From the NCBI RefSeq assembly GCF_032854445.1, contig NC_088304.1, forward strand, positions 26,919,704-26,983,703: 64,000 nucleotides of DNA, read 5' to 3'. Within the stretch, counting starts at the first letter, position 1. Every line of letters starts with the position of its first letter. The notes beneath the pieces are model-generated. The model saw only the letters and a program-made list of their open reading frames with translations. It made no database searches and was not told the DNA's origin. Source of the DNA: Liolophura sinensis (lineage: Eukaryota > Mollusca > Polyplacophora > Chitonida > Chitonidae). Below, in pieces: positions 940-58,649 of this stretch. Position numbers and translations under genes: made by a program.

Positions 940-1128
940 ATCCATGTCTCCGCTCGGCGTTAGCTCACTCTGGTACGTGCCGCGGATTCTGGGAGTGTAG
1001 CCGTGATGGACTACGGTCCGTGGGAGTTCGCTGCTGCCCGAACGGACAGGCCTTCTCTCTGGGGGCCGGGTGCGTACCCAGCTCGTGTTCAGACTCCTGC
1101 CCGATGGAAGTAAAACTTAATAATACAG
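940..1128 (+). CDS. Gene A exon: Cys-rich chitin-binding-type module
   Basis: The acceptor is at 938-939 and the donor GT at 1129-1130. It enters in phase 1, leaving two bases to complete the first codon. Eight cysteines follow the spacing of the second Cys-rich exon of gene B: C, C-x5-C with an aromatic F-W-E-C core, then CC-x11-C-x4-C-x3-C. This resembles a CBM14/peritrophin-A fold; chitin binding is inferred from the family. Confidence 0.78.
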
Positions 1129-4100: not shown

Positions 4101-4329
4101 TTGAAAGTCTGACAGAATACATTGAAAAAATGGACAAGTCACATGCCATAACAAACGTTTATGTTTCATAAAAATAGACAAAAAATGTAGGGTTAAATGC
4201 AGTTTTCAATTATCTTTCCAGTGGGGATGACTTATTTCACCCTGTCGCCTAGATCACATTTGTGTTTTTTTTCAATATTATGGGAAACAGCTGACTGCTT
4301 CTTCTTGGATGATTCCGTCCTATTTTCGT

Positions 4330-4383
<54 letters not shown>

Positions 4384-23168: not shown

Positions 23169-24593
23169 TTTATGTCTTATTAACGTGCGATAAAACGATG
23201 TTCTACAATTCTGACCATTTCGATGGTAAGGTTGACCTCTGTCATGGAAAAGAATAGATATCAGTTTGCGTTTTCAACCAAAATAATCAGAGAGTAAAAA
23301 ATTGCATAGTCCACTGAGGTTGAAGGTACCACTCGCTTAAGAAGCAGCTGATATCATTTTCGTTAGACCCTTTATTCACTGTTCTTCTTTGTCAGTTTTC
23401 TTAAAGGACAAGTTTTAAATGGAGACATCTGTACCATAATTTCATCCCTACGGTAAATATACATACATTTACAATAAAAGCCAAATTGTATTACCTACTT
23501 GGATTCAAGGCGCATTACTGTAATTTATAAAGTGAAAAAAATACACGTCTTTTATGTTGACCACTTGGACAAAATGGTGACCTCTACGTCACTGATTAGT
23601 GACACACAAATTAATCGCTTTCTGCCCTAAAAAAGGACTGGTCTTTGAAGCAAACGTTATCAAGACGAAGATTAAACAGCGTCGTACCGGTTGACTTCCT
23701 CAACTGACAAGGTGTACACGTGTATGTAAATAAAGACAGAATGTCGTGTACGCTCGCTTCGTCAACATTTGCATTAAGTCCTGGGTATTTGTTATTATAC
23801 CAACAAAGTATTATAGACTTTTCGGGACATGTGTAAATTAAACAACACAATGCAAAACCCGCTACGTGAAACATGGATATATCAAAGCTTCTCTTAGATA
23901 AGTACAAAAGTAACTGTGCTCATTCATGATCCGCAACGAAATACAGCCAATACATCAATGTAGGATTCGTGATATTCTAATTTCCTCGTATTTTCATTAT
24001 TTATCCGGTTCACTAAGATACACTCAGGTTACGCCTTCTTTTCAGTTTCATTTAATGATGAAAAAAGACGAAGTCAAATTATTTGTGGCTTTTTACCAAC
24101 CGACTAAAATTTTACCTTATTTAAAATGTACGTGACCACAAACTATATTACTATCGCAAGTGTTAAATTCTGGTTTTAACGTAAATTCACAACAAACAAT
24201 ACAGTTCTCCTCCCTAGATGAGCTATGATTACAGAGAACACGTTTTTATAATTTACCTTAACGTCATGAAGATAGTTATGGATTTTCAAGAATCTGTGAC
24301 GCCATGTTTTTGTACTTGGTGCGTGACATGTTGAGCAGCATTCCGATTGGTTGCCAACTACTGCACGAGTTTCTGCTTGACAACGCCTTCTGATGAAAAA
24401 AAAAATTTCGTCCTAATATGGACACACCACAGTCAATGACTAGTCCTAATTCTAAAGAGGAGGATTTTGTTTATATTTAAAGGATTGACTATCATATTGA
24501 CAGTCAAAGGGTCATCGCCTTGGGCGGAAATGAGCTAAAAACGGAAAACCGACCGACAGACGTTCCTGATATAGAAAGAGGGAGGAAGTTTCC

Positions 24594-24743
24594 TATAAAA
24601 CTGCGACACTTACAGTCGTTGAAGCAGATCATCCACAGACAGTGGACAGAGACACATCGGCAAATATTGTGTGATCAACAGAGAGAGACACAGAGAGCAA
24701 AGGAAAGATACAGAGAGAAATTTACCTGAGTATCTACCTTAAG
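24594..24743 (+). promoter_or_regulatory. Gene B core promoter (TATA box) and non-coding first exon
   Basis: TATAAAA at 24594-24600 lies in a stretch kept almost unchanged in both duplicate copies. About 30 bases on, transcription would start near 24625-24630. A purine-rich leader (GAGAGAGACACAGAGAGC region) runs to a donor AAG|GTGAGA after 24743, and the matching acceptor CTTTCAACAG ends at 25011. The 5' UTR therefore appears split by a 268-bp intron. Start and splice sites are inferred. Confidence 0.6.
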
Positions 24744-25053
24744 GTGAGAATATCAGTACTTAAGGTAAAGGTTCGCTACCTTTAATATTTTGTCTACCAA
24801 TTTATTTCATAGTGTCTGTTTTAAATGCTTTGATGAAAACCTGTTTAGAGTGGCATAAGAATGTGTGATTATTTTTTGTACGAGTTAACTTGTATTTTGT
24901 TATGGTAGGTTTATTTCTAAAATTATACTACTGAACTTTATGCATATTTTGCACTTAATTTAATTTATATGTAAAGAATGAAACTGACCTGATTATTATT
25001 CCTTTCAACAGAAAAATCACCCAATTCAGGATACAAACAAACAATTTACCAAG

Positions 25054-25117
25054 ATGAAGCTGTTCTTTGCGATCGTCGTATTGGTGGTGCACACTGCCAT
25101 GGCCACAGATTCTAGAG
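25054..25117 (+). CDS. Gene B signal-peptide exon
   Basis: It encodes M-K-L-F-F-A-I-V-V-L-V-V-H-T-A-M-A before T-D-S-R, a textbook secretory leader with a likely cut after A17. The donor is AGAG|GTAAGC, leaving phase 1. The acceptor of the 5' UTR intron is at 25010-25011, 42 bases before the ATG. Confidence 0.88.
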
Positions 25118-28100
25118 GTAAGCCGTTATACTGCTGTAGTATACACATGGGCAGGGGAATTTCTAGATTCTTAGTGGCAACACGTGGTGGGCGGCATACG
25201 TGTGACCGTTTGTAAAGTCTTTCCCCTCTAGTATGCCATGCAGCTTTGAACGTCAACGGAAAACTCGCCGGTAATTTGCCAAAGGTGCCTAAGTTAAAAA
25301 TTCCGTATAACAACACATAATTCAACCCACATGGATATATAGGTACGTTACATATTAAACGGTGGCTCGCAGATGAAGTTTTACTACAAATTTGCCTTCG
25401 TTTCTGTTTGTGCAACTCTAAGTATTTTGTAATGAATTGTCTTGTTTCTAGAATTTACAACACGTGAGGAGATAGAAATTGGCATGTATAGATCTATTTA
25501 ACAATAGCTCGTAAACGTTCGCCCTGATCTTGTTACTCGGTAATTTCCGTCATATTCGTTTATTTCCGGCTTACGCTTAAGAAATAAAAAACAACACGTA
25601 AACTAACTATGCTGCTTGTATATGTATGAAAGTGACTAGCTGTCATAGGCCTACTATATGAAACAAAGATGGTATAAATATAGACTTACCTCTTCAATTT
25701 GGCTAGTGTTGTCATACGGTGTTTACAAAATCGTGTCACTAATTTCTGACATGTTCGCGACTTTAAATGATAGATATGCTCAACGCATTTAAAAACCTGG
25801 GGAAATTTATATATGAATCAGCGTTTCCCGGAGCGAACCGGATTCAAATTTTAATATGAACAATACACATGTTCAATGAATTCACTTTACGTTAATATTA
25901 CTGGTCGAGGTGGGGAGATCGAATCCATCTTCTGCTAGTTTGGATAAGTTTTGTCACACGCATTGTGAGGTGTTACGTCGACCTCCGGAAAATCTCTGGT
26001 TTCTTCCACGTATAAATCAGACCACCGTCATGTTTCTGAAATATTATTGAGAACGATGTAAAACATCAATAAAACAATTTTACACTTCAATAGAATAAGG
26101 AATTCATAACCAACCCTGATATTCTACAGCCCTATGCCAGTGTGACAGCAGATAAAATGAGCATATACTTTTGCAAGTAACTTTTTAATTAACCAAGCGT
26201 TTTAAGCTTTACATGCAACAATGTACATTGCAAGTATTTTCTTGTTAACGGTCTATTTACTTCCAACAATTGCCGAGGAAATTTTCCTGATTTGTCACGC
26301 ATCGAGTAACAGCCTTTTACGTTGATTTTATCTTGAATATTTTGCGTCTATTTACAACACAACAGCCTTGACATCTCGTGTGAAGTTACACTTTGCCCAA
26401 TAACTCGCCAACTTTAATTCATGAAAAATACCGATCTCAAGAAGTGTTTATGCTTAAATTGAAATACACTTAATACATACATGTTACATGTGGCGCAATC
26501 GTACGCCCACGGACATCGCATACTTTGAATTACATACCTTTTCTCTCGGCGAGGGCGTTTTCTGCAGCGCATGAATACGTGTGAGTCGGTTTAGCCTTTA
26601 ACATGTAAACAGTTTTTTACATTAAAGCACAGAAAATGTTTTAAGTTACCCAGGATCCATTAAGTCGTGTTGTTTATATTAAAGAAATGTATTTTTGCAA
26701 TGCTCTGCAATGTGTTTCTTAATTCAAAGGTTTAAAATAAATTATTCCACAAATATAGATCAATAAACTAAGGTTGTATGATGTCAATAATAATAATATC
26801 AGTCAATCATTAGCAAAAGTCGATTAAAGTTTATTTTGATCATTGGCAATTTGACCCCTTGCGGTAAAATTAGAACCTTTGTATGTAAATAAGTCACAAT
26901 ACATATAAAAAGATATAAGTGCGGACAGTAGTGTGCCGTTCAGATTTTAAACACTTTAAGCTCTGGCGAAATCCAACGACAACATGTTCCGGCATGTAAC
27001 ATGCTGTTTTCATGCTTTACACTGTTTCATTCCTCTTATTTACTTTCTGGATAGTCCTACGCTGTTTAAAATGCTCCATCAGTTCCTTAATAGATTTCGC
27101 AACTGTTTACTTTTGTGTTTCAGACGACTGTCGTACACTGGCCGATCTGTATTTCATCGTGGACGCCTCCGACAGTATGTCGACACAGAACTTTCAGCAA
27201 GAGCTGGATTTTGTCAACAACGTTGTTGGCGGTTTGATGCTGAACAGCACAGAGGGTTTCTCTGTTGGCGTCGTCGTCTTCAGCCAGAACCTCCAGGAGA
27301 TAAACCTGGGCAGTTTCAACACAAAGACCACTCTCCGAAATGCCGTTAACAAGCTGAACCATGACAGAGACGGCACCTTAACTCACCTAGCCATCCAGCG
27401 AATGACAAACTCGTTTAAGACTTACGGACGCTCCAACGTGCAGCAAATCGCAATTCTCCTTACAGACGGCCGCTCCAAGTTTCCCGATCAGACGTCGTCC
27501 GCTGCAGCCATTGCTCGGGCTAATGGTATCCTCATGATTGCAGTTGGTATCGGATCTCAGATCAACAACGAAGAGATGAACAGCATTGCTTCCAGATCTG
27601 ATCTTGTCTTCCTCGTACCCGACTTTGAAGCTCTCATACACCTGGCTCAGCGAATCGCCACCACTGTCTGTCCAGGTAAGAGCTAAAACTACTCTCCCAT
27701 GCAAACCATTCCTTGAACACCCTGTGATTAAGAGGAGCCTGTGAAAATGAAAAATGACGTGTTTTGAAGTTAAAGCAACAAAAGTTCACGACCTAATTAC
27801 ATAGTGCGCAAGCACCATATAACTCGTTCGAATTATTTTCTTAACGATTTTCCCCATAAATGAAGCATTTTATGACAGACAATGTAATGTTGAGTAGAAG
27901 ATACAATACTCATATTATTTTAGACAAAACGATTTAAAGAAAACAAAAAAAAGACAAAAGTAAGGCATATAAAATTTAACGGATTTATTCGGGCACTAAA
28001 CATTTTTTTTTAAAGAAAAAAGTATGTTTACTGTAAAGAGATATATTTTAGGTCAAGAAGAAACCAGTAGAACTTTCAATGAATAAGTCGAGCTGTCTTC

Positions 28101-31100
28101 CTCTTCGGTTGTACAAGGGAAGGTCTGCCTGCAACCAGGTTGATTGTCATGAGCCTCCCTTGAGTCCTGCACGGTTTCCTCCCACTTTAAATGCTGGGCA
28201 ATGTGGTATAAGTAAAATATTCTTGAGCACGGCGTAAAACACGAATCAAATGAACAAGCATACGAATATATTATCGGATTGTGCATACAGCTGTGTCCGT
28301 TATTAAATCAGGAATTTATGTATCGCGTGTCAAAATGATACTTACATACTATACGGAAAATAAGTTTCTGGTGATTTCTGTTTTCAGTAACTACAACATC
28401 AACGACGACGACAACCACTACTACAACGACGACGACAACAACAACAACAACAACAGCCCCAGTCTACAGTCAGTAATATTTTCTTTCCACAATTAATGAG
28501 GCCCTCATCTGTAATAATTGTGTACTTTACAACGTATAATGAAACGTAAGGGGAACATGTGTCATACGTATATGTATGTGTGTGTCCTTATTATTTAATG
28601 AAAAAAACCAAAAACAAAACAAAAACAATAGAATATGGAGATATATGTATGTGCAAACTAAACAATTCAGTCGTCAGCCGGAATCTGGGGTTGAGCTGCA
28701 AACTGGAAACCCTGACCCATAACACCGTCCCTCATTGAATTACTATTGACCTTAATTCTCTCCCCCTCACAGATCCTTGCGACGATTGTACCTTTTACAA
28801 TGGAGTCGGCTACAACTCGCACGAAACTGACTGCAACTTGTTCTACCAGTGCCATCTTGTCTACGGCGAACTGAAACCTGTTGTGAAACAATGTGGATTC
28901 GGTCTCTTCTGGAATCAGGCTAAATTGACCTGCATGGAGCCAAAAGATGTCCCGTCATGTCCCCAGGGTAGGATTTGTGCTTGTGTCATCAGTTGTTCTT
29001 TGAAATAAATAATTTGTCTCTGACACCCAAGTGATGCTTGTGAAGTCCACATTGAGTACGACGTTGCAGGCCTTAACGGAGATGGTAATATTCAGATGTC
29101 TTCTTGGAGTTACCTCCCATGTTTGCAGTGGTGTGTTGTTATTCTGTTTTAAAAAAGTGGATTTGCCGAAGCATTTAATCATCTACATGGGAACAGTTTC
29201 GCTACATTTAATGAGCAATTTAATAACCTCAGTATTAAGTAAAAGGAGTCAGAATGACTTTTTTCATCCCTGGCATATACTTTTGACTATATCAGACTTT
29301 CAAATACAGAGAATTAATTCAATTTCAAAAAAGTTTACAAGCATAAAATAATTAAAACAAGAGCAACTTCTAACTTTGTTAAACGTAAAATCTAACCACT
29401 TTTTCCGTATCTTTTAAACAGTTCTATGCCAGGGTAGGGCCACCAGCTACGTGTACACTGGTAACTGTGCCGCCTATTGGACCTGTTACAACGACAGACC
29501 CACCTACGCACACTGCTGCCCCTGGGGTCATGCCTTTGTCCAGGACGTGGGCTGTGTACCAGACTCCTCATGCCAAGATGTCTGCCCACCCGACGGAGTC
29601 GTCGGAGATAAAGGTAAAATAATATTTGAATATAAAAGACCATATAACTGAGAGCTTCGAGGAACGGCGCATCAGTGAGTGACATTGTGTCACCAAGTGA
29701 CTCTCAGGACATGACTACACTGGCCATATAGAGTGCAGAACCAGGACAGCGTTCAGCAAATGCATTGATAGTAGCATCTTAGACGCGCCCATGGCTCAAG
29801 CAGAATACAATAATGCAGTGATTTAAATAGCAATTACAAGTAAAAAAACAAGAGTACAAGGCAGCAATGCATCGGGATACACTTTATATAAGGCGAAATC
29901 CTCCTTCTCGCTGTACGCTTTCTTCGAAATGATACAAATAACACGTTAAAACGAGCCAATAGTTTTATAAATCAGTGACTAAATGAAAACAAGTATGTTA
30001 TAACATGCAAATCTGTCTCTAGAGCTCTATGTTGGCTTACATGAATTACATAAATAAATGACCAAATCACAGACAAATTCAAATTATTCAAACTATGTAC
30101 GTCAGTTGCGCCATTATTGCAACTGTCCATAAGCATTATGCCCATACCTCCCCTACTCACATGCTTGTCGCATGTCAATAAAGATAATAATTTTGTTATA
30201 TTTGTATCAGAAAATTTACAAATCCTTTTGTATACATGTAGGTATTTGCAACAAACTTCCTGGACCGAATCCCGGTCAGTATTACGAACAGTTGGATGGT
30301 ACCGAGCAAATGCTGAGAGACTGTGCTCCTGGAACTGGTTTTGATGAGCTGACATGTGACTGCACTATCTTCATTCATTACAATCCCCCCATCCATGGTA
30401 AGTTTTACTACAGTTTGGGAGGGCAATGTGCCTTCATACAATCATCAGTTTGCTACAGAGCGTTCCCAAACATTAATATGCAAATTGCCAGATCAATTGT
30501 TCCCTAGATGCATCATTACTTTAAATAAAAGGTTGGGCATATTTCGTTGTAAGCCATCGCGGATGTTTAAAATGTAACATTAGAGTAGATCATAGTGCCT
30601 TCTGCCAAATGTTTACTTATTTGTTTCTCTCTGAATCTATCATCTACAACAACAAAATTCATATCTATCTTTTGTATGTAAGAAGGTATGTCATGCCTAG
30701 ATATGCAGTCCATTAGACGTACGAATACCATCAGCTCAGTACTAACATGTACATGTAACAAGAATCTGAGTGCACTGAAATTTTATTCATCTCTCTAAAT
30801 GTACTTTATTTGCTGGCAATTCTGCAATGTTAAAGTAGTTAATATACAATCTTTAAGCTGTCTAGGGATATTTTTCCTATGGTCGTTTGGGAAAGTATTA
30901 AAAATGCAAATCTGTCTGACACTAACGGTATATGTCTTCCTGATTACCTTCCAGCTTGCCGCCCAGCTTTATATTTACCTTTTGACTACGACTTGAACGA
31001 CAAGTCTCCATCACACGCCTACGTGGGTAACAGCGGTGTCCAGATTCTCAGGAACATTCCAGGAGCCATCGGGGACGGTGTTGCTTATTTCGACGGTTAC

Positions 31101-32683
31101 TCTTCAGCAATCATCCCAGTGTTCGCCAACAACGATTTTGGGGACAAGTTCGTAATAACCTTCCGATACCAGGAGACGGCTGTCACTGGGGGAACGTACA
31201 AGTCAGAGGCTCTGATCAGCAACAGCGGCTGTAAGTCCCCCTGTTCTGTAGCGGTCACCTTCAACAGAGCAGCTTCAGAAACTGAGGGCAAAATCAGAAC
31301 CAGTCTCAACGGGACTCAGACTGCGACCGTGAAGAATAACGTGAGTACCGCCTTGCCCAGCGTGTTTTTTGCAGTGTAACAGGTAATCGTGTATATTATT
31401 CTGTGCTTCTGATGTGTACAACGGAAAGTCATTGTCACAAATACTGTCACAATTATTCTCACAAGAAGTAAATCTTGAAAGGGTAACCTTTATTATACCA
31501 CTTGCTCATTGTTGCTTCAGCATTCTTAGGAGTTCTTCCCAGAAACCTCACACCTGGGTCAAAAGTTCCGTTACCAATTTTATATGCATAGAAAAGCATG
31601 AAAATGGCATTTGTCGAAGACGTATCCACAGTCTGAAAAGTGTCTTTAAATCCCAGGTAGTTATTTAGAGTATTATTTTTGTGATGGTTATTTTACATTC
31701 TGTCCACGAGAATAGAAAACGTTCTGTAATGCACATAAGTATGGAAAAAAATTACTGGCACGAATTACAACTAGAGTGATGTGATATTTTGTCTTACAGA
31801 AAGCCTCATGGAAACAGGTCCAGTACACTTACAACGGAGAGCACCTCATCGTTGTTGTCGATGGGGAAGTAACCCATGTTCAAGCCGCAGGTAAGACAAG
31901 AATTGACGTAGAATTCCGAGACCTAGTAATTCAGAAACCCAGTAGTAGAAACTCAGATAATAGTAAACATTTTGATGGAACTTAACCCTGCATAGTTTAA
32001 TTCCCTCCTCAGCCAAGCGGATTTAACAGTAACAGTCTGTGTTAAAATGTAGCATTCTGATAGAGCTGGTCTTCATCTCAAAGCACAGATAACATATCGT
32101 TATTAAGTTTAGCTGTGACCATTGTCCACATTTCTCTCAGTCCAGATAGGCCTGGAAGCTTATTCATGGTTAATCTGTTCTATCTCGTTAGGTGACATCG
32201 AAATCGTCCAGGCTGCTATCCAGCTAGGCGTGGGATGCAAAGAATACGATCGCTTCACTGGATACATGGACGAGGTATGTTTCTATGGCAACGCGTTTAA
32301 AAACTACAAAAACAAGAGATGAACTGCTTATAAATTTATGCAGATTTGATAAAAATATGTTCTGCTTTAATTTATCTGTAGATCGTATGACAAATTTTCA
32401 GCGAATTATGTATAATTTATTTTACGTGCACAAACGAACAAGCTCCATATCAAATAATCCGTAACAGCAAATAAAATTACATTCTTTTTAATACAACATG
32501 CACACTCGATTGACGTAGCCTAGAATTACAGCCTCTTGGCGCCTGAAATATACAGAAAATAATATTCAGTGCATGTCATCAGCTAACATGCAACTCACAC
32601 AATCATGCAATCAAGTCGAATGTCTAACCAACATCTTCTTTTCTCCTTTTTTTCAGCTTTACATTTACAAATGCCTTGTGTAA
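25054..32683 (+). CDS. Gene B: intact Pif/BMSP-like shell-matrix-type protein (VWA, Thr linker, chitin-binding, LG), 608 aa
   Basis: Ten coding exons: 25054-25117, 27124-27675, 28388-28468, 28773-28967, 29422-29613, 30242-30397, 30955-31340, 31800-31890, 32192-32274 and 32657-32683. They total 1827 bp and all junctions keep frame. Order: signal peptide 1-17; VWA about 29-204; Thr-rich linker 206-232; Cys-rich chitin-binding modules 233-297 and 298-361; a further Cys-rich segment 362-413; LG domain 414-608. The VWA has a complete metal site (D35-A-S37-D-S39, T106, D136). This order is that of Pif/BMSP proteins, secreted into the organic matrix of mollusc shells, where they bind chitin and calcium carbonate; the role here is inferred. 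The ATG at 25054 is followed at once by a hydrophobic leader. Possible poly(A) signal ATTAAA at 32769. It could instead serve a non-shell extracellular matrix. Confidence 0.88.
25452..26090. repeat. 640-bp segment present in copy 1 only, ending in a SINE-like piece
   Basis: Copy 2 jumps from CTTGTTTGTAGAATT directly to AGTAGAATAAGG. In copy 1 the extra DNA ends with a decayed SINE (about 25910-26080) containing CACCGTCATGTTTCTGAAAT and GATGTAAAACATCAATAAAA. Either copy 2 lost it, helped by TAGAAT repeats at both edges, or copy 1 gained it. Confidence 0.6.
27124..27675 (+). CDS. Gene B VWA-domain exon
   Basis: A single exon holds the whole VWA domain (about residues 23-205). The acceptor is TTGTGTTTCAG and the donor CCAG|GTAAGA. 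The first strand reads L-Y-F-I-V-D-A-S-D-S-M-S, giving the D-x-S-x-S metal-binding site; then D-G-T106-L-T-H-L, and I-L-L-T-D136-G-R. All five MIDAS ligands are present, so divalent-metal binding is expected. There is one N-S-T glycosylation sequon at N62. Cysteines 24 and 204 bracket the domain and may pair. Confidence 0.92.
28075..28255 (+). repeat. Intronic SINE fragment, copy 1
   Basis: It contains GGTTTCCTCCCACTTTAAAT, AAATATTCTTGAGCACGGCG and TAAAACACGAATCAAATGAA. The same insertion lies at 39785-39965 in the sister copy, so it predates the duplication. Confidence 0.75.
28388..28468 (+). CDS. Gene B Thr-rich linker exon
   Basis: An 81-bp exon between TGTTTTCAG and TACA|GTCAGT. Its frame is almost all ACA/ACG/ACT codons, giving about 20 threonines with one Ser, closed by A-P-V-Y. 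The donor was chosen because it alone keeps phase 1 into the next exon. A mucin-like, possibly O-glycosylated hinge between the VWA and chitin-binding parts is the likely role. Confidence 0.75.
28773..28967 (+). CDS. Gene B first chitin-binding (CBM14/peritrophin-A) exon
   Basis: 195 bp, acceptor CCCCTCACAG, donor CAGG|GTAGGA. Cysteines C238-x14-C253-x5-C259-x13-C273-x12-C286-x8-C295 fit the peritrophin-A pattern. The conserved aromatic cores are C-N-L-F-Y-Q-C and G-L-F-W-N-Q. Chitin binding follows from the family. Confidence 0.88.
29422..29613 (+). CDS. Gene B second Cys-rich chitin-binding-type exon
   Basis: 192 bp, acceptor TTTTAAACAG, donor AAAG|GTAAAA. It carries C300-x12-C313-x5-C319-x9-CC-x11-C342-x5-C348-x3-C352 with Y-W-T-C and W-G-H-A-F. 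It is more divergent than the first module but has the same Cys order. Confidence 0.85.
30242..30397 (+). CDS. Gene B third Cys-rich exon
   Basis: 156 bp, acceptor ACATGTAG, donor CATG|GTAAGT. It contains C364, then Q-Y-Y-E-Q-L-D-G, then R-D-C389-A-P-G-T-G-F and C400-D-C402. It is shorter than a full peritrophin module and sits between the chitin-binding part and the LG domain. Confidence 0.83.
30955..31340 (+). CDS. Gene B first LG-domain exon
   Basis: 386 bp, acceptor TTACCTTCCAG, donor AAC|GTGAGT. It opens A-C-R-P-A-L-Y-L-P-F-D-Y-D and includes G-V-A-Y-F-D-G, F-V-I-T-F-R-Y-Q-E-T, a C-x3-C pair before V-A-V-T-F-N-R, and an N-G-T sequon. The strands match a LamG/concanavalin-like sandwich. 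Confidence 0.88.
31800..31890 (+). CDS. Gene B second LG-domain exon
   Basis: 91 bp, acceptor GTCTTACAG, donor GCAG|GTAAGA. It encodes W-K-Q-V-Q-Y-T-Y-N-G-E-H-L and V-V-V-D-G-E-V, the central strands typical of LamG folds. Confidence 0.88.
32192..32274 (+). CDS. Gene B third LG-domain exon
   Basis: 83 bp, acceptor TATCTCGTTAG, donor GAG|GTATGT. It contains I-Q-L-G-V-G-C and F-T-G-Y-M-D-E, the closing strand of the LG fold (compare F-x-G-x-I-D-E in LamG domains). Confidence 0.88.
32657..32683 (+). CDS. Gene B terminal micro-exon
   Basis: After a TTTTTTTCAG acceptor it encodes L-Y-I-Y-K-C-L-V and TAA. It completes the final LG strand started by Y-M-D-E. ATTAAA at 32769-32774 is a possible poly(A) signal. 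Confidence 0.85.
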   Translation, partial: LYIYKCLV

Positions 32684-32944
32684 ACTTATCTCTATGGCTG
32701 ACCTCCAGGGCTCCTGTCAACTTCAACCATTCTAGTCCCTTAAAGAACATTTTTCTTGTATATAATGCATTAAATTAATTATAGTTTTGTAACACTTTTA
32801 AGACAAGCGAATGATTTGATTCGGTCACAAACTTCCATGGTATAGATCAACATTTGACAGTATCACTGACCATATGTATGTATGAAGAGTCGATCACGGT
32901 GAAAACAACTTCTTATAATAGTTGTTTCTTGGATGCCTGAACTC

Positions 32945-33075
32945 TGGGGTCGCTTGCACTGAGCGATCGTAGGCTAAGTTGATTTTAAATACCTTGGCGA
33001 TACATGTAAAACCATGAGTTGCCGTGGGACCTACAATAAACTAAGCTTACGATCGCTTACGATTACAAGAGGCTC
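32945..33075. mobile_element. MITE-like inverted repeat, copy 1
   Basis: GAGCGATCGTAGGCTAAGTT on the left faces AACTAAGCTTACGATCGCT on the right, with about 60 bases between. It has no coding content. The same element is at 44742-44865 in copy 2, so it predates the duplication. It looks like a non-autonomous DNA transposon. Confidence 0.6.
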
Positions 33076-33662
33076 TTAAACCTAATTAATAGTACTCAAA
33101 TTGATTTTATCTGAAGTTTTCTAGGTTTATGTAATGTAGCTGCTAAGTCATGGTGAAACTCAGCAGTATAACATATTTATTACGGAGAAAGACTGAGCTT
33201 GTTAGGGTATAGAAAAGTAACTGGCTTTTCTTAGAACACAATATGTATGTATTTCACGTCTCTTTAAACCAAAAAGCTTTAGGTGAATCGTATGTTATTG
33301 TAAAACACATGTGGTTTCACTGTAATTTAGTCCACATCATTATTACTTGTATTGTATTATTAATTAGTACCGATTGCATCATCTGTAATTTCTTCACCTT
33401 GACACGTGTTTGTTTATCAAATAAAACACCTGATACTATACGACATGTGTTATTTACCTTACTGTAGGATTATTATATAAAATATAATTAAAGACCTACA
33501 GGGCAGCCACTAAAACCAGCGCAGCTACGTCGATGTGATAGTTGGGACATGGTCACACATAACATGTGAAATCCAGATTCCTTAAACCTTAGATTTGTTT
33601 TTTTTTCTAAGTGATTCTGTAAACGTTTCCATGGTGGCAACTTATACACTCTCTAAGACTAT

Positions 33663-35195: not shown

Positions 35196-36885
35196 ATTTC
35201 TGAAGTAGGTTGATGTCACTGAAACATGTGTGGAGAGGAAACTGTTAATGATAGCTTCAAGTAATTTTTCACCATAAGAAAAGAGCATATGTTGGGGCCG
35301 CAGTTTTACCTATTTCTATTTTCTTTACAGTTTTCGTTTTAGAGGCCATTGAAATTACGTAACTAAATAATTTGATTATAGCTCAAAATCTTACAATACA
35401 GATAAGAAACAGAAATAGGCTCGAAATCACCGGCCCGAAATAAACCAAAATACAACAAATTTTATGTCTTATTAGCGTGCGATAAAACGATATTCTACAA
35501 TTCTGACCATTTCGATTGTAAGCTTGTCCTCTGTCATTGAAAAGAATAGATATCAGTTTGCGTTTTCAGCCAAAATAACAAGAGAGTAAAGAATTGCTTA
35601 GTCCACTGAGGTTGAAGGTACCACTCGCTTAAGAAGCAGCTGATATCATTTTCGTTAGACCCTTTATTCACTGTTCTTCTTTGTCAGTTTTCTTGAAGGA
35701 CAAGTTTTAAATGGAGACATCTGTACCATAATTTCATCCCTGCGGTAAAAATACATACATTAACAATAAAAGCCAAATTGTATTACCTACTTGGATTAAA
35801 GACGCATTGCTGTAATTTATAAAGTGAAAAAAATACACGTCTTTTATGTTGACCACTTGGACAAAATGGTGACCTTCACGTCACTGATCAGTGACACACA
35901 AGTTAATAGCTTTCTGCCCTAAAAAAGGACTGGTCTTTGAAGCAAACGTTATCAAGACGAAGATTAAACAGCGTCGTACCGGTTAACTTCCTCAACTGAC
36001 AAGGTGTACACGTGTATGTAAATAAAGACAGAATGTCGTGTACGCTCGCTTCGTCAACATTTGCATTAAGTCCTGGGTATTTGTTATGATGCCAACAAAG
36101 TATTATAGACTTTTCGGGACATGTGTAAATTAAACAACACAATGCAAAATCCGCTACGTGAAACATGGATATATCAAAGCTTCTCTTAGATAAGCACAAA
36201 AATAACTGTGCTCTTTCATAATCCGCAACGAAATACAGTCAATACATCAATGTAGGATTCGTGATGTTCTAATTTCCACGTATTTTCATTATTTACCCGG
36301 CTCACTAAGATTCACTCGGGTTACGCCTTCTTTTCAGTTTCATTTAATTATAAAAAAAGACGAAGTCAAATTATTTCCGGCTTTATACCAACCGATTAAA
36401 ATTTTACCTTATTTAAAATGTACGTGACCACAAACTATATTACTATCGCAAGTGTTAAATTCTGGTTTTAACGTAAATTCACAACAAACAATACAGGTCT
36501 CCTCCCTAGATGAGCTATGATTACAGAGAACACGTTTTTATAATTTACCTTAACGTCATGAAGATAGTTATGGATTTTCAAGAATCTGTGACGCCATGTT
36601 TTTGTACTCGGTGCGGGACATGTTGAGCAGCATTCCGATTGGTTGCCAACTACTGCACGAGTTTCTGCTTGACAACGCCTTCTGATGAAAAAAAAAATTT
36701 CGTCCTAATATGGACACACCACAGTCAATGACTAGTCCTAATTCTGAAGAGGAGGATTTTGTTTATATTTAAAGGATTGACTATCATATTGACAGTCAAA
36801 GGGTCATCGCCTTGGGCGGAAATGAGCTAAAAACGGAAAACCGCCCGACAGACGTTCCTGATATGGAAAGAGGGAGGAAGTTTCC

Positions 36886-37032
36886 TATAAAACTGCGACA
36901 CTTACAATCGTTGAAGCAGATCATCCACAGACAGTGGACAGAGACACATCGGCAAATATTGTGTGATCAACAGAGAGAGAGACAGAGAGCAACGGAAAAC
37001 AGAGAGAAATTTACCTGAGTATCTACCTTAAG
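36886..37032 (+). promoter_or_regulatory. Gene C promoter (TATA) and leader exon
   Basis: TATAAAA at 36886-36892 and the purine-rich leader are kept from copy 1 with only small changes. The 5' UTR donor AAG|GTGAGA follows 37032 and its acceptor CAACAG ends at 37306. The pseudogene may therefore still be transcribed; that is inference. Confidence 0.55.
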
Positions 37033-38835
37033 GTGAGAATATCAGTACTTAAGGTAAAGGTTCGCTGCCTTTAATATTTTGTCTACCAATTTATTTCTTA
37101 TTTATAGTGTCTGTTTTAAATACTTTGATGAAAACCTGTTTAGAATGGCATAAGAATGTGTGATTATTTTTTGTACGAGTTAACTTGTATTTTGTTATGG
37201 TAGGTTTATTTGTAAAATTATACTACTGAACTTTATGCATATTTTGCACTTAACTTAATTTATATGTAAAGAATGAAACTGACCTGTTTATTATTCCTTT
37301 CAACAGAAAAAGTACCTAATTCAGGATACAAACAAATAATTTACCAAGATGAAGCTGTTCTTTGCGATCGTCGTATTGATGTTGCACACTGCCATGGCCA
37401 CAGATTCCAGAGGTAAGCCGTTATACTGCTGTAGTATACACATGGGCAGGGGAATTTCTAGATTTTTAGTGGCAACACGTGGTGGGCGGCAAACGTGTGA
37501 CCGTTTGTAAAGTCTTTCCCCTCTAGTATGCCATTCAGCTTTGAACGTCATACGTCGGAAAGCTCGCCGGTAATTTGCCAAAGGTTAGTTGTTTACACCG
37601 GGCACTCCAGTTTCCTCTATCCATAAAAATGACTGCTAAGTGAAAAATTCCGTATAACAACACATAATCCAACCCACATGGATATATAGGTACGTTACAT
37701 ATTAAACGGTGGCTCGCAGTTGAAGTTTTACTACAAATTTGCCTTCATTTCTGTTTGTGCAACTGTAAGTATTTGTAATGAATTGTCTTGTTTGTAGAAT
37801 TCAGTAGAATAAGGAATTCATAACCAACCCTGATATTCTACAGCCCTATGCCAGTGTGACAGCAGATAAAATGAGCATATACTTTTGCAAGTAACTTTTT
37901 AATTAACCAAGCGTTTTAAGCTTTACATGCAACAATGTACATTACAAGTATTTTCTTATTAACGGTCTATTTACTTCCAACAACTGCCGAGAAAATGTTC
38001 CTGATTTGTCACGCATCGAGTAACAGACTTTTACGTTGATTTTATCTCGAATATTTTGCGTCTATTTACAACATAACAGCCGTGACAGCTCGTGTGAAAT
38101 TACACTTTGCCCAATAACTCGCAAACTATAAGTTATGAAAAATACCGATCTCAAGTAGTGTTCATGCTTAAATTGAAATACACTTAATACATACATGTTA
38201 CATGTGGCGCAATCGTACGCCCACGGACATCGCATACTTTGAATTACATACCTTTTCTCTCGGCGAGGGCGTTTTCTGCAGCGCATAAATACGTGTGAGT
38301 CGGTTTAGCCTTTAACATGTAAACAGTTTTTTACAATAAAGCACAGAAAATGTTTTAAGTTACCCAGGATCCATTAAGTCGTGTTGTTTATATGAAAGAA
38401 ATGTATTTTCTTATCTTTGCAATGCTCTGCAAAGTGTTTCTTAATTCAAAGGTTCAAAATAAATTATTTCACAAATATAGATCGATAAATTAAGGTTGTA
38501 TGATGTCAATAATAATAATATCCGTCAATCATTAGCAAAAGTCGATTAAAGTTTATTTTGATCATTGGAAATTTGACCCCTTGCGGTAAAATTAGAACCT
38601 TTGTATGTAAGTAAGTCAAAATACATATAAAAAGATATAAGTGCGGACAGTAGTGTGCCGTTCAGATTCTAAACACTTCAAGCTCTTGCGAAATCCAACG
38701 ACAACATGTTCCGGCATGTAACATGCTGTTTTCATGCTTTACACTGTTTCATTCCTCTTATTTACTTTCTGGATAGTCCTACGCTGTTCATCAGTTCCTA
38801 AACAGATTTTGCAACTATTTACTTTTGTGTTTCAG

Positions 38836-39386
38836 TCGAATGTCGTAAGCCGGCCGATCTGTATTTCATCGTGGACGCCTCCGACAGTATGTCGACACAG
38901 AACTTTCAGCAAGAGCTGGATTTTGTGAACAACGTTACTGGCGGTTTGATGCTGAACAGCACAAACGGTTTCTCTGTCGGCGTCGTCGTCTTTAGCCAAA
39001 ACCTCCAGGAGATAAACCTGGGCAGTTTCAACACAAAGACCACTCTCCGAAATGCCGTTAACAAGCTGAACCATGACAGAGACGGCACCTTAACTCACCT
39101 GGCATCCAGCGAATGACAAACTCGTTTCAGACTTACGGACGCTCCAACGTGCAGCGAATCGCAATTCTCCTTACAGACGGCCGCTCCAAGTTTCCCGATC
39201 AGACGACGTCCGCTGCAGCCATTGCTCGGGCCAATGATATCCTCATGATTGCAGTTGGTATCGGATCCCAGATCAACAACGAAGAGATGTACAGCATTGC
39301 TTCCAGACCTGATCTTGTCTTCCTCGTACCCGACTTTGAAGCTCTCATAAACCTGACTAAGCAAATCACCATCAAAGTCTGTCCAG
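38836..39386 (+). pseudogene. Gene C VWA exon, one-base deletion
   Basis: 551 bp against 552 in gene B. ACTCACCTAGCCATCC of gene B reads ACTCACCTGGCATCC here, so the frame ends ...L-A-S-S-E-stop at 39114-39116, before the D136 metal ligand. Downstream the old frame stays open to the donor CCAG|GTAAGA. There are roughly 19 amino-acid replacements against about 7 silent changes by eye, many at the two ends of the exon. Confidence 0.85.
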
Positions 39387-39784
39387 GTAAGAGCTAAAAC
39401 TATTCTCCCACGCAAAGCATTCCTTGAACACCCTGTGATTAGGAGGAGCCTCTGAAAATGAAAAATGGCGTGTTTTGAAGTAAAGCAACAATAAGTCCAC
39501 GACCTAATTACACAGTGCGCAAGCACCATATAATTCGTTCGAATTATTTTCTTAACGATTTTCCCCATATCTGAAACATTTTCTGACAGAAAATGTAATG
39601 TTGTGTAGAAGATACAATACTCATATTATTTTAGACAAAACGATTTAAAGAAAACAAAAAAAAGGACAAAAGTAAGGTATATAAAATTTAACGGATTTAT
39701 TCGGGCACTAAACATTTTTTTTTAAAGAAAAAGTATGTTAACTGTAAAGAGATATATTTTAGGTCAAGAAGAAACCAGTAATAC

Positions 39785-39965
39785 TTTCAATGAATAAGTC
39801 GAGCTGTCTTTCTCTTCGGTTGTACAAGGGAAGGTCTGCCTGCAACCTGGTTGATTGTCATGAGCCTCCCTTGAGTTCTGCACGGTTTCCTCCCACTTTA
39901 AATGCTGGGCAATGTGGTATAAGAGAAATATTCTTGAGCACGGGCGTAAAACACGAATCAAATAA
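39785..39965 (+). repeat. Intronic SINE fragment, copy 2
   Basis: It occupies the same position and has nearly the same sequence as 28075-28255, so it was inserted before the duplication. Confidence 0.75.
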
Positions 39966-40099
39966 ACAAGCATACGAATATATTATCGGATTGTGCATAC
40001 AGCTGTGTCCGTTATTAAATCAGGAATTTATGTATCGCGTGTCAAAATGATACGTACACACTATACGGAAAATAAGTTTCTGGTGATTTCTGTTTTCAG

Positions 40100-40225
40100 T
40101 ACCTACAACATCAACGACGACGACAACCACTACTACAACGACGACGACAACAACAACAACAACAACAGCCCCAGCAACAACAACAACACCCCCAGCAACA
40201 ACAACAACAGCCCAGTCTACAGTCA
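40100..40225 (+). pseudogene. Gene C Thr/Pro/Ala linker exon, expanded
   Basis: The same ACN-repeat exon as in gene B, extended by P-A-T-T-T-T-P-P-A-T-T-T-T-type codons. With the gene B donor (ACA|GTCAGT) the phase into the next exon is lost by one base. A donor 4 bases downstream (TCA|GTAATA) would restore it. Which is used is unknown. Confidence 0.6.
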
Positions 40226-40525
40226 GTAATATTTTCTTTCCACAATTTATGAGGCCCTCATCTGTAATAATTGTGTAGTTTACAACGTATAATGAAACGT
40301 AAGGGGAACATGTGTCATACGTATATGTATGTGTGTGTCCTTATTATTTAATGAAAAAAAACAAAAACAAAACAAAAACAATAGAATATGGAGATATATG
40401 TATGTGCAAACTAAACAATTCAGTCGTCAGCCGGAATCTGGGGTTGAGCTGCAAACTGGAAACTCTGACCCATAACACCGTCCCTCATTCGATTACTATT
40501 GACCTTAATTCTCTACCCCTCACAG

Positions 40526-40720
40526 ATCCTTGCGACGATTGTACCTTTTACAATGGAGTCGGCTACAACTCGCACGAAACTGACTGCAACTTGTTCTACC
40601 AGTGCCATCTTGTCCACGGCGTGCTGAAACCTGTTGTGAAACAATGTGGATTCGGTCTCTTCTGGAATCAGGCTAAATTGACCTGCATGGAGCCAAAAGA
40701 TGTCCCTTCATGTCCCCAGG
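40526..40720 (+). pseudogene. Gene C first chitin-binding exon (open)
   Basis: 195 bp, all six peritrophin cysteines kept. It differs from gene B by only a few residues (for example Y263 to H and E265 to V). The exon itself is undamaged. Confidence 0.75.
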
Positions 40721-41174
40721 GTAGGATTTGTGCTTGTGTCATCAGTTGCTCTTTGAAATAAATAATTCGTCTCTGACACCCAAGTGATGCTTGTGAAGTC
40801 CACATTAAGTACGACGTTGCAGGCCTTAGCGTAGATGGTAATATTCAGTTGTCTTCTTGGAGTTACCTCCCATGTTTGCAGTGGTGTGTTGATATCCTGT
40901 TTTAAAAAAGTGGATTTGCCGCAGGATTTAATCATCTACATGGGAACAGTTTCGCTACATTTAATGAGCAAATTTATGACTTCAGTATTAAGTAAAAGGA
41001 GTCAGAATGACTTTTTTCATCCCTGACATATAGTTTTGAATATATCAGACTTTCAAATACAGAGAATTAATTCAATTTCAGAAATGTTTACAAGTATAAA
41101 ATAATTAAAACAAGACCAACTTTTAACTTTATTTAACATAAAATCTAACCACCTTTTTCGTATCTTTTAAACAG

Positions 41175-41366
41175 TTCTATGCCAGGGTAGGGCCACGAGC
41201 TACGTGTACACTGGTAACTGTGCCGCCTATTGGACCTGTTACAACGACAGACCCACCTACGCACACCTGCTGCGCCCGGGGTCATGCCTTTGTCCAGGAC
41301 GTGGGCTGTGTACCAGACTCCTCATGCCAAGATGTCTGCCCATCAAAGTCGTGGTTGGAGATAAAG
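41175..41366 (+). pseudogene. Gene C second Cys-rich exon with compensating indels
   Basis: An extra C near 41265 and a lost base near 41345 leave the exon at 192 bp but shift about 27 codons into another frame. The normal CC-x11-C-x5-C-x3-C pattern is replaced by a different Cys-containing string before the frame returns at V-V-V-G-D-K. Confidence 0.75.
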
Positions 41367-41990
41367 GTAATATAAAATTTGAATATAAAAGACCATATCA
41401 TAGAGGAACGGCGCATTAGAGAGTGACATGTGTCATCAAGTGACTCTCAGGACATGACTACACTGGCCATATAGAGAGCAAAACCAGGACAGCGTTCAGC
41501 AAATGCATTGATAGTAGCATCTCAGACGCGCCCATGGCTCAAGCAGAATTATTCTCAATACTGCAATTGATTTAAATAGCAATTACAAGTAAATAGACAA
41601 GAGTACAAGGCAGCAATGCATCGGGATACACTTTATATAAGGCGAAATCCTCCTTCTCGCTGTACGCTTTCTTCGAAATGATACAAATAACACGTTAAAA
41701 CGAGCCAATAGTTTTATAAATCAGTGACTAAATGAAAACAAGTATGTTATAACATGCAAATCTGTCTCTAGAGCTCTATGTTGGCTTACATGAATTACAT
41801 GAACAAATGAACAAATCACAGGACAAATTCAAATTATCCAAACTATGTACGTCAGTTGCGCCATTATTGCAACTGTCCATAAGCATTATGCTCATACCTC
41901 CCCTACGCACATGTTTTTCGCATGTCAATAAAGATAATAATTCGTTATATTTGTATCAGAAAATTTACAAATCCTTTTGTACACATGTAG

Positions 41991-42144
41991 GTATTTGCAA
42001 CAAACTTCCTGGACCGAATCCCGGTCAGTATTACGAACAGTTGGATGGTACCGAGCAAATGCTGAGAGACTGTGCTCCTGGAACTGGTTTGATGAGCTGA
42101 CATGTAACTGCACTATCTCATTCATTACAATCCTCCCATCCATG
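41991..42144 (+). pseudogene. Gene C third Cys-rich exon, two deletions
   Basis: 154 bp against 156. GGTTTTGATG became GGTTTGATG and ATCTTCATTC became ATCTCATTC. The frame reaches TGA at 42098-42100, after C-A-P-G-T-G-L-M-S. Confidence 0.8.
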
Positions 42145-42699
42145 GTAAGTTATACTACAGTTTGGGAGGGCAATGTGCCTTCATACAATCATCAGTTTGC
42201 TACAGAGCGTTCCCAAACATTAATATGCAAAATGCCAGATCAATTGTTCCCTAGATGCATCATTACTTTAAATAAAAGGTTGGCATATTTCGTTGTAAGC
42301 CATCGCGGATGTTTAAAATGTAACATTAGAGTAGATCATAGTGCCTTCTGCCAAATGTTTACTTATTTGTTTCTCTCTGAATCTATCATCTACAACAACA
42401 AAATTCATATCTATCTTTTGTAAGTAGGAAGGTATGTCATGTCTAGATATTGCAAGTCCATCTAGACGTACGAATACCATCAGCTCAGTACTAACATGTA
42501 CATGTAACAAGAATCTGAGTGCACTGAAATTTTATTCATCTCTCTAAATGTACTTCATTTGCTGGCAATTCTGCAATTTTAAAGTAGTTAATATACAATC
42601 TTCAAGCTGTCTAGGGATATTTTTCCTGTGGTCGTTTGGGAGTATTAAAATACGAAGCTGTCTGACACTAACGGTATATGCCTTCATGATCACCTTCAG

Positions 42700-43087
42700 C
42701 TTGCCCCCCAGCTTTATATTTACCTTTTGACTACGACTTGACGACAAGTCTCCATCACGCGCCTATGTGGGTAACAGCGGTGTCCAGATTCTCAGGAACA
42801 TTCCAGGAGCCATCGGGGACGGTGTTGCTTATTTTAACGGTTACTACTCTTCAGCAATCATCCCATTGTTCGCCAACAACGATTTTGGGAACAAGTTCGT
42901 AATAACCTTCCGATACCAGGAGACGGCTGTCACTGGGAGAACGTACAAGTCAGAGGCTCTGATCAGCAACGTCGGCTGTACGTCCCCCTCTTCTGTAGCG
43001 GTCACCTTCAACAGAACAGCTTCAGAAACCGTGGGCAAAATCAGAACCAGTCTCAACGGGACTCAGACTGCGGCCGTGAAGAATAAC
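42700..43087 (+). pseudogene. Gene C first LG exon, one-base deletion and 3-base insertion
   Basis: CTTGAACGAC became CTTGACGAC near 42740, shifting frame to a TAA at 42900-42902. A separate in-phase TAC was added near 42843. The C-x3-C pair of gene B also lost its second Cys (S-P-S-S). Confidence 0.8.
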
Positions 43088-43584
43088 GTGAGTACCGCCT
43101 TGCCCAGCGTGTTTTTTGCAGTGTAACAGGTAACCATGTATATTATTCTGTGCTTTTGATGTGTACAACGGAAAGTCATTGTCACAAATACTGTCACAAT
43201 TATTCTCACAAGAAATAAATCTTGAAAGGGTAACCTTTATTATACCACTTGCTCACTGTTGCTTCAACATTCTTAGGGGTTCTTCCCAGAAACCTCACAC
43301 CTGGGTCAAAAGTTCTGTTACCAATTTGATATACATAGACAGCATGAAAATCGCATTTTTCGAGGACATAGCTAAAGTTCGAAAAGTGTCTTTAAAATCC
43401 CAGGTAGTTATTTAGAGTATTATTTTTGTGATGGTTATTTTACATTCTGTCCACGAGAATTGAAAACGATTAATAGTTTTACATTGATTTGATATGATAT
43501 TGTTCTTTAATGCACATAAGTATGGAAAACGTTACTGGCACGAATTACAAGGCAACTAGAGTGATGTGATATTTTGTCTTACAG

Positions 43585-44474
43585 AAAGTCTCATGGAAAC
43601 AGGTCCAGTACACTTACAACGGAGAGCACCTCATCGTTGTTGTCGATGGGGAAGTAACCCATGTTCAAGCCGCAGGTAAGACAAGAATTGACATAGAATT
43701 CTGAGACCTAGTAATTCAGAAACCCAGTAGTAGAAACTCAGATAATAGTAAACATTTTGATGGAACTTAACCCTGCATAGTTTAATTCCCTCCTCAGCCA
43801 AGCGGATTTAACAGTAACAGTCTGTGTTAAAATGTAGCATTCTGATAGAGCTGGTCTTCATCTCAAAGCACAGATAACATATCGTTATTAAGTTTAGTTG
43901 TGACCATTTTCCACATTTCTCTCAGTCCAGATAGGCCTGGAAGCTTATTCATGGTTAATCTGTTCTATCTCGTTAGGTGACATCGAAATTGCCCAGGGTG
44001 CCATCCAGCTAGGCGTGGGATGCAAAGGATACGATCGCTTCACTGGATACATGGACGAGGTATGTTTCTATGGCAACGCGTTTAAAAAGTACAAAAATAA
44101 CAGATGGACTGCTTATAAATTTATGCAGATTTGATAAAAATATGTTCTGCTTTAATTTACCTCCATATCGTATGACAAATGTTTGACTTCGTCGAATTAA
44201 GCGTAATTTATTTTACGCGCACAAACGAACAAGCTCCATATCAAATAATCCGTAACAGCAAATAAAATTACATTGTTTTCAAGAAAAACATGCACACTCG
44301 ATTGATGTAGCCTAGAATTACAGCCTCTTGGCGCCTGAAATATACAGAAAATAATATTCAGTGCATGTCATGAGCTAACATGCCACTCACACAATCATGC
44401 AATCAAGTTGAATGCCTAACCAACATCTTCTTTTCTCCTGTTTTCAGCTTTACATTTACAAGTGCCTGGTGTAA
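43585..44474 (+). pseudogene. Gene C last three LG exons (open)
   Basis: Exons 43585-43675, 43977-44059 and 44448-44474 are undamaged with intact splice sites and the TAA at 44472. A possible poly(A) signal ATTAAA is at 44561-44566. Confidence 0.75.
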
Positions 44475-44741
44475 ACTTATCTCTATGGCTGACCTCCAGG
44501 GCTCCTGTCAACTTCAACCATTCTAGTCCCTTAAAGAACATTTTTCCTTGTGTATAATGCATTAAATTAATTATAGTTTTGTAACACTTTTAAGACAAGC
44601 GAATGATTTGATTCGGTTACAAACTTCCATGGTATAGATCAACATCTGACAGCATCACTGACTATATGTGTGTATGAAGAGTCGATCAGGGTGAAAACAA
44701 CTTGTTACAATAGTTATTTCTTGGATGCCTGATCTCTGGGG

Positions 44742-44865
44742 TCGCTTGCACTGAGCGATCGTAGACTAAGTTGATTTTAAATACCTTGGCGATGCATGTT
44801 AAAACATGAGTTGCCCTTGTACTTACAATGAACTAACCTTACGATTGCTTTGTGCATGAGGCTCT
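44742..44865. mobile_element. MITE-like inverted repeat, copy 2
   Basis: Counterpart of 32945-33075. Left arm GAGCGATCGTAGACTAAGTT, right arm AACTAACCTTACGATTGCTT, somewhat more decayed. Confidence 0.55.
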
Positions 44866-45442
44866 TGAACCTAATTAATAGTACTCAAATTCATATTGTC
44901 TGAAGTTTTCTGGGTTTATGTAATGTAGCTGCGAAGTTATGGTAAAACTCAGCAGTATAACATATTTATTACGAAGAAAGACTGAGCCTGTTAGGGAATG
45001 GAAAAGTAACTGGCTTTTCTTAGAACACAATATGTATGTAATTTACGTCTCTTAAAACCAAAAAGCTTTAGGTAAATCGCAAGTTATTTTAAAACACATG
45101 TGGTTTCACTGTGATTTAGTCCACATCATGATTACTTGTATTGTATTATTAATTAGTACCGATTGCATCATCTGTAATTTCTTCACCTTGACACGTGTTT
45201 GTTTATCAAATAAAACACCTGATACTATACGACATGTGTTATTTACCTTTCTGTAGGATTATTATATAAAATATAATTAAAGACCTACAGCAAAGCGAGT
45301 AAAACCAGCGCAGCTACGACGATGTGATAGATGGGAAATGTGAAATCCGGATTCTTGTCAATTTATCTTAGATTTGTTTTTTGTTTCTAACTGATTCTGT
45401 AAACGTTTCCATGGTGGCAACTTATACACTCTCTAAGACTAT

Positions 45443-46211
45443 GGCTTAAATTAGGCAGAACTACGCTATTAATACTCGTTCAGCTAAGGCTTTAAGTCAT
45501 CAGGTTCATTACGTTTTTCTGGAGAAGGATGCCGATCTACCCCGTGTCATGTTGCACTTAGGAAACATACATGATTCTCAAACTTGCAATTTCACCTAGT
45601 GTAATCATGTGTATTACACCAGCCGTTTCGCGCTAAATGTGCCGGTGGCCAAAAATGCTGCACAGCGCTCATCGGTTCCCTTATGTGACCTTGTATGTAG
45701 TTCTAATGGATATCATTACGTTCCACTTATACCGCATACATAATGAGCTAGCTTGGCGGGTGGTCTGTTCGTCAGTTACTTAGTCGTCAGTTACGTAGTC
45801 GTCAGTTACGTAGTCGTCAGTTACTACATGGGTTAGTGGTACCATGGGCCTCGTTAACACCAAACTTGTGGAGAAATCAGTGCAAAACCAAACCCATCCG
45901 AGAGCCCAAATATCAGGCAGAGATTTATATATGGGTGCGCTTAACCCCGGTGCTAATTAGTTTCCCGACATTCTGTGTATGCTCATGGACATCTAATATG
46001 AGAACCTGCAATGCAGCTGCGCGGTTTCCAAACAGCCTTCACGGATGGTTTTTAGCTTCTCCTCAGTACTGAATGGTTTGTGTGAATGCTTGTACATGTA
46101 TAAAACAGAGACCGTTTGGTGAAATCATGGACTGTTTATTAAGCAATTAACGAGCATACAACTGTCCAGTTACTGTGTAAGTGTAGATAAAATAAATAGT
46201 TTTTATTTTCT
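45443..46211. repeat. Single copy of the 0.77-kb 3'-flank unit
   Basis: Equivalent of the doubled unit at 33663-35195. It holds four GTCAGTTACNTAGTC-type short repeats at 45772-45828. The minus-strand frame seen in copy 1 is interrupted here. Confidence 0.8.
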
Positions 46212-46889
46212 TTTTCTGAAGTAGGTTGATGTCACTGAAACATGTGTAGAGAGGAAGCTGTTAATGATGGCTTGAAGTAATTTTTCACCATATGAAAAGA
46301 GCATATCTTTGGGCTGGGAGTTTTACATATTTTCTATTTCCCTTACAGTTTTCGTTTTAGAGGCCATTGAAATTACGTAACTAAATAATTTGATTATAGC
46401 TCAAAATCTTACAATACAGATAAAAAACAGAAATAGGTTCGAAATCACCGGCCCGAAATAAACCAAAATACATGACAGTTTTATCAATATCCAAAAACTG
46501 TTAACACGTCCATAATCGACTAATAGCGACATTTTATTGTAATTTTTAAACTTTGTGTAGTTAATATTTCTCTGCATGCATATCAAATATCAGGGGATCC
46601 GTGAACTGGTTCTTGAAAAGCAAATGTTTAAAGGTTTTGCTTGAAATCCAGTGTAGGCTCAAAACTAATTAACTAAGAAGACAAACTTCAAATCACTGAA
46701 AGATAATATCTACCAGACTTTTGTCGTCAATGTCAAACAGCAGCAATTTTCAGTTTTTTAGAATAACCCCAAAATGTACTGCCCGAAAAGAATACTTTTA
46801 ATACTTCGAGCAAAAAACAATAAGTCTTTAGCTTGGAAGCCTAATAGACCATTTATAAGGTATAAATAAACAATAGACCGTTTTCAGTT

Positions 46890-58340: not shown

Positions 58341-58354
58341 TAAGCAGAATTAAC

Positions 58355-58640: not shown

Positions 58641-58649
58641 CGATACTTG

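Follow-up and report, generated by a model that had tools for sequence, protein, structure and literature searches.

Does the chiton Liolophura sinensis carry two adjacent copies of a Pif-like gene, one open and one decayed, or has a single locus been entered twice in the assembly? The question is raised by a stretch of 64,000 nucleotides (NC_088304.1, positions 26,919,704 to 26,983,703 of the forward strand), here called the window, in which a preliminary description had claimed a recent head-to-tail duplication of a whole Pif/BMSP-like gene together with its promoter. The features on which the answer depends are given with their positions in the window, beginning with the segments themselves.

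23169..35454, plus strand: segment A, with upstream region, open Pif-like gene and 3' flank (self-BLAST, MAFFT alignment)
35461..46472, plus strand: segment B, the collinear copy with a broken gene (self-BLAST, MAFFT alignment)
35443..35475, no strand: junction of A and B, with a TTTAT microhomology or a filler of 6-7 bases (sequence reading)
25455..26086, plus strand: 632-bp block in intron 1 that only A has, its end resembling an interspersed repeat in the window (A/B alignment)
33662..35195, plus strand: younger tandem sub-duplication in the 3' flank of A, two units of ~0.76 kb, single in B (self-BLAST, divergence counts)

The two segments and their junction

Self-BLAST of the window showed that segments A and B are collinear and lie head to tail, both on the plus strand. 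They match in three blocks, 23169-25455 with 35461-37801, 26078-34423 with 37792-46211, and 34423-35454 with 45442-46472, at identities of 94.1%, 92.9%, and 90.0%, respectively, gaps counted. When 23169-35454 was aligned with 35461-46472, the segment boundaries given in the preliminary description proved exact. Among the 10,819 ungapped columns of the MAFFT alignment, 10,342 are identical and 477 are different (4.4% substitutions), and chance cannot account for similarity over such a length. The alignment and the gene model also bore out the claim that both copies carry the whole modelled gene, the TATA region, and the 3' flank. About 1.9 kb upstream of the ATG is present in both copies, and the flank beyond the stop codon measures ~2.8 kb in A versus ~2.0 kb in B, mainly because of a 757-bp block that only A has. 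This block and the 632 bp in intron 1 of A are the largest length differences, and both are missing from B. For the 632-bp block we considered the insertion of a mobile element, and no clean target duplication or inverted ends were found by eye, so that a deletion in B is equally likely. The end of the block resembles interspersed repeat pieces at 3732, 10230, and 28215. These belong with a short interspersed repeat family whose pieces are ~75 to 86% alike (3660-3800, 10192-10257, 18656-18754, and 28166-28251 plus its copy in B) and whose tail may resemble repeats common in bivalve genomes.

Six bases (35455-35460) separate the BLAST blocks of A and B. When small gaps are allowed in the alignment, the five bases TTTAT can be read at both breakpoints, immediately beyond the 3' end of B and where A begins; at least five shared bases were found in 0.6% of 100,000 random breakpoint pairs drawn from the window. 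The microhomology reading needs an imperfect alignment over 6-7 bases and is no more likely than a short filler; both would be compatible with end joining or with template switching. An assembly gap between the copies is absent, with 0 N in the 64,000 bases of the window, which would also be compatible with a gap that had been wrongly filled. No repeat pair flanking both ends, as for unequal crossing-over, appeared in the self-BLAST (>150 columns, 1e-10). In the given sequence, the copies are adjacent, in the same orientation, and separated by one junction, as in a tandem duplication, and we infer that they are also neighbors in the animal.

The open gene and its broken copy

The gene model for copy A spans 25054 to 32683 with 10 coding exons, whose borders are GT/AG and whose open frame encodes 608 amino acids and ends in a stop. 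The structure is predicted from the sequence, and the donor of exon 3 is weak.

24594..24600, plus strand: TATA box of copy A (sequence)
24618..24743, start approximate, plus strand: putative 5' untranslated exon (donor 24744, acceptor ends 25011; read from sequence)
25054..25117, plus strand: exon 1, signal-peptide-like start by eye (gene model)
27124..27675, plus strand: exon 2, VWA domain (gene model, Pfam)
28388..28468, plus strand: exon 3, poly-Thr linker, weak donor (gene model)
28773..28967, plus strand: exon 4, CBM_14 (gene model, Pfam)
29422..29613, plus strand: exon 5, second CBM_14, below cut-off when scored alone (gene model, Pfam)
30242..30397, plus strand: exon 6, cysteine-rich (gene model)
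30955..31340, plus strand: exon 7, N part of a LamG-like domain (gene model, Pfam)
31800..31890, plus strand: exon 8, C part of the LamG-like domain (gene model, Pfam)
32192..32274, plus strand: exon 9 (gene model)
32657..32683, plus strand: exon 10 with stop (gene model)
37349..44474, plus strand: gene remnant in B, introns and 10 exons present, exons 2, 3, 5, 6, and 7 carrying seven frame-shifting indels (gene model)

Pfam results for copy A showed a single VWA stretch (PF00092; 114.9 bits, cut-off 23.8) and, downstream of it, two stretches of CBM_14 (PF01607; 35.9 bits for the whole protein). Scored exon by exon against a cut-off of 22.1, exon 4 alone reaches 32.6 bits and exon 5 alone 20.8. 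The C-terminal Laminin_G_3 match (PF13385) is weak, with an E value of 2.7e-5 and 24.8 bits against a cut-off of 27.6. The VWA exon has no relatives in the prokaryote genomes searched and the LamG exon none in the viral contigs searched, as one would expect of an animal gene. Intron 1 also contains, upstream of the VWA exon, another TATA-like site that is conserved in both copies (26904 in A, 38626 in B) and is a possible alternative promoter.

In PMC11291548, the Pif/BMSP family is described by a VWA domain, CBM_14 in most members, and a partial LamG; poly-Thr occurs in an insert of PifN, bivalve BMSPs have four VWA domains, and proteins combining VWA with chitin binding are also found in nemerteans, phoronids, and brachiopods. 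The predicted product of copy A shares with these molluscan proteins the order of VWA and CBM_14, possibly also the LamG-like end, and it has poly-Thr between the VWA and chitin-binding parts as in PifN (PMC11291548). It differs in having one VWA, a short poly-Thr linker, and no obvious Asp-rich insert like that of Pif80 (PMC11291548). No acidic insert of this kind was seen by eye between the LamG parts, where exon 7 joins exon 8 directly, though an unmodelled exon is possible. The four tandem VWA domains of bivalve BMSPs were likewise not found by Pfam. Of the original label "Pif/BMSP-like," the first half therefore suits the architecture and the second fits poorly. The VWA of copy A was compared with PDB chains only, which does not place it in a subfamily. 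By its architecture the gene appears to be Pif-like, and a role in the shell may be supposed for it.

Copy B retains its introns, a TATA box at 36886, and the splice dinucleotides, and its frame is destroyed by the seven frame-shifting indels, accompanied by one in-frame indel in exon 7. The frame ends after residue 114, within the VWA domain. That one copy is open and the other broken, as first described, is thus correct for the gene model, and with introns retained and frame broken, B resembles an unprocessed (duplicated) pseudogene, from which it differs in nothing notable. Pfam scores for B are lower than for A in VWA (108.7 versus 114.9 bits) and CBM_14 (31.7 versus 35.9 bits) and slightly higher in Laminin_G_3 (25.1 versus 24.8 bits).

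We compared the substitutions in coding and noncoding columns. The copies differ at 74 of 1,823 coding columns (4.1%) versus 403 of 8,996 noncoding columns (4.5%), and dN/dS between them is 0.62, from difference counts of 49.5 (nonsynonymous) and 23.5 (synonymous). After rounding of these counts to 49 and 24, nonsynonymous sites do not differ from introns in divergence (p 0.63) and are borderline less diverged than synonymous ones (p 0.046). If both copies had evolved with an omega of 0.2, about 16 nonsynonymous differences would be expected instead of the 49.5 observed. A dN/dS of this size, with coding divergence close to noncoding, is what is expected when one copy is free and the other constrained. 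The indels were treated in the same manner. At the noncoding rate (50 in 8,996 columns, both copies together), an unconstrained copy should have gathered about 5.1 indels in its exons; eight were observed, all assignable to B. The chance of no exonic indel in A, were it unconstrained, is 0.006, and the chance of eight or more in B is 0.14, in a test that is not wholly independent because the indels are assigned to B mostly on the grounds that A is open.

An older paralogue and uneven divergence

Using the A protein as query, tblastn returned further matches on the same strand from 954 to 8285 (E 2e-26 to 2e-3), and exon modelling assembled them into part of another gene, here called U.

940..8475, plus strand: U, an older Pif-like paralogue truncated at the left edge of the window and represented by its 3' half of 6 exons (tblastn, exon modelling)

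To the right of B, the same search gave no match with E below 1 within the window. The exons of U measure 189, 156, 386, 91, 83, and 27 nucleotides (stop included), against 192, 156, 386, 91, 83, and 27 in A, and their phases are equal. U is open over the modelled part, and 123 of its 306 aligned residues are identical to those of A (40%). For exons 6 and 7 the lengths in U and A are 156 and 386 and those in B 154 and 388, so that U confirms the state of A there; exon 5 is uninformative on A versus B, with 189 in U and 192 in both copies. The comparison is without exons 2 and 3, as the 5' half of U lies beyond the left edge of the window. It covers 25 residues at which A and B differ, of which four with an X and one opposite a gap were set aside. 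At the 20 scored, U matches A at 5, B at 1, and neither at 14; the direction would fit decay in B, and the numbers are small. Since U lies on the same strand to the left of A, the A/B event adjoins an older relative, in the order U, A, B. Neither U nor the sub-duplication in the 3' flank of A was reported in the preliminary description.

That sub-duplication consists of two units that differ from each other by 2.5% (19 of 757) and from B by 7.7% (57 of 740) and 7.2% (54 of 753). Unique sites number 10 and 8 in the two units and 45 in B, which would give the sub-duplication about one-third of the age of the A/B split in that stretch if rates were equal. Divergence between A and B is itself uneven. 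With the neighbors of gaps masked, noncoding divergence rises from 3.7% to the left of 32853 to 6.3% to its right, and none of 300 permutations gave a step as extreme. The step lies close to the 3' end of the gene. Differences per 200 ungapped columns are overdispersed, with a variance/mean of 2.4 exceeding that of all 1,000 shuffles. A model with one age for the whole divergence was a poor fit in the change-point test. The word "recent" in the first account agrees with 4.4% as a relative term, and one clock-like event does not explain all of the alignment. The unevenness could reflect gene conversion along the body of the gene, a mutation rate that varies by region, or haplotypes of different age. 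The longest identical run between A and B, 204 columns, was equalled or exceeded in 52 of 1,000 shuffles and is weak as a sign that a conversion tract formed recently. That the upstream region and gene body, introns included, are less diverged than the 3' flank could also mean that sequence exchange between A and the dead copy took place in the past or continues, B being a gene-conversion partner through which variation enters an expressed matrix gene; B, which keeps its TATA box and splice sites, could instead be a transcribed regulatory pseudogene. We think it very unlikely that B has either of these roles.

In the rest of the window, no tRNA was found with ARAGORN (bacterial code) and no Rfam match at the gathering thresholds. 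Outside the duplicated segments, open reading frames of at least 70 amino acids were considered, and none of the ten scanned from there scored above a curated Pfam cut-off, a search that may miss genes with short exons. The window is rich in tandem repeats, and minisatellite arrays lie right of the duplication at 50195-50522 (period 29), 51178-51438 (20-60), 51884-53873 (44-110), 58339-58641 (17), and 63685-63999 (32).

Duplication, haplotypes, and the Pif cluster

We regard it as highly probable that the locus holds a real tandem duplication with pseudogenisation of B in a Pif-like cluster. That a whole gene was duplicated head to tail along with its promoter, and that one copy then decayed, had also been proposed at the outset, and apart from the BMSP affiliation this is the best supported reading. 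The duplicated segment, ~11-12 kb long, would have included a complete gene for a Pif-like secreted protein together with the TATA promoter region and 3' flank. It would have been copied head to tail beside the older same-strand paralogue U, probably when a short microhomology served for end joining or template switching. Constraint would have continued on copy A, and B would have been under little or no constraint since about the time of the duplication and so have become an unprocessed pseudogene. A 0.76-kb piece of the 3' flank of A would later have been duplicated again.

The main rival to this is an assembly artefact, in which the assembler placed two diverged haplotypes of a single locus one after the other, with B as a null allele. 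A divergence of 4.4% lies within the allelic divergence of some marine invertebrates, and two old haplotypes would also explain its patchiness. PMC9516828 reports that such errors affected 4 to 16% of the sequence in the older assemblies it examined. However, there is no gap at the join, where a short microhomology can be read, and the seven frame-shifting indels, all assignable to one copy, the dN/dS, and the older same-strand paralogue in the same window also speak for the duplication; we judge the artefact clearly unlikely. The lesions of B might instead be uncorrected sequencing errors in one of two intact genes, as six of the seven frame-shifting indels are single-base and several lie in short one-base runs, a pattern known from poorly polished long reads. 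Outside the exons, however, one-base gaps are balanced (B, 15; A, 12), so B shows no particular tendency to error. Had the two copies shared one error rate, the exons of A should be affected as well, and its modelled frame is open; a dN/dS of 0.62, which comes from substitutions, by itself points to relaxed constraint. Sequencing error is possible for single lesions of B and barely credible as the explanation of them all.

Copy-number polymorphism is common in bivalves, and the duplication could be real and present on some chromosomes only, which would be compatible with the tandem duplication preferred here. One window cannot tell a fixed copy from a segregating one, and an allele-specific tandem duplication has been described (PMC9516828). 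Set against this, 4.4% would represent a long time for a segregating variant, and we hold a polymorphic copy to be rather unlikely.

Oysters have a cluster of Pif_LamG3 genes on one chromosome, for which PMC10543319 proposes an origin by tandem duplications; these are described as "reverse tandem" events accompanied by loss of domains and by new function. The chiton locus is similar in that several genes with VWA, chitin-binding, and LamG-like parts lie on one chromosome and appear to have undergone tandem expansion followed by change (PMC10543319). In contrast to the bivalve cluster, all three units are on the same strand, the youngest copy is broken, and no new architecture is seen. As Pif/LamG3 clusters are published, the locus fits a known kind. 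We do not claim that Pif pseudogenes are new to the literature.

The locus cleanly illustrates birth and death among clustered Pif-like genes. The old paralogue, both copies, open and broken, the junction between them, and a younger sub-duplication all lie within 64 kb, and the relative ages of these events can be read from the sequence. It also offers a practical example of how true duplicates can be weighed against haplotypes that were joined. Decay of the duplicate is an ordinary fate in an unusually clear display, and it brings no change to the known evolution of such genes.
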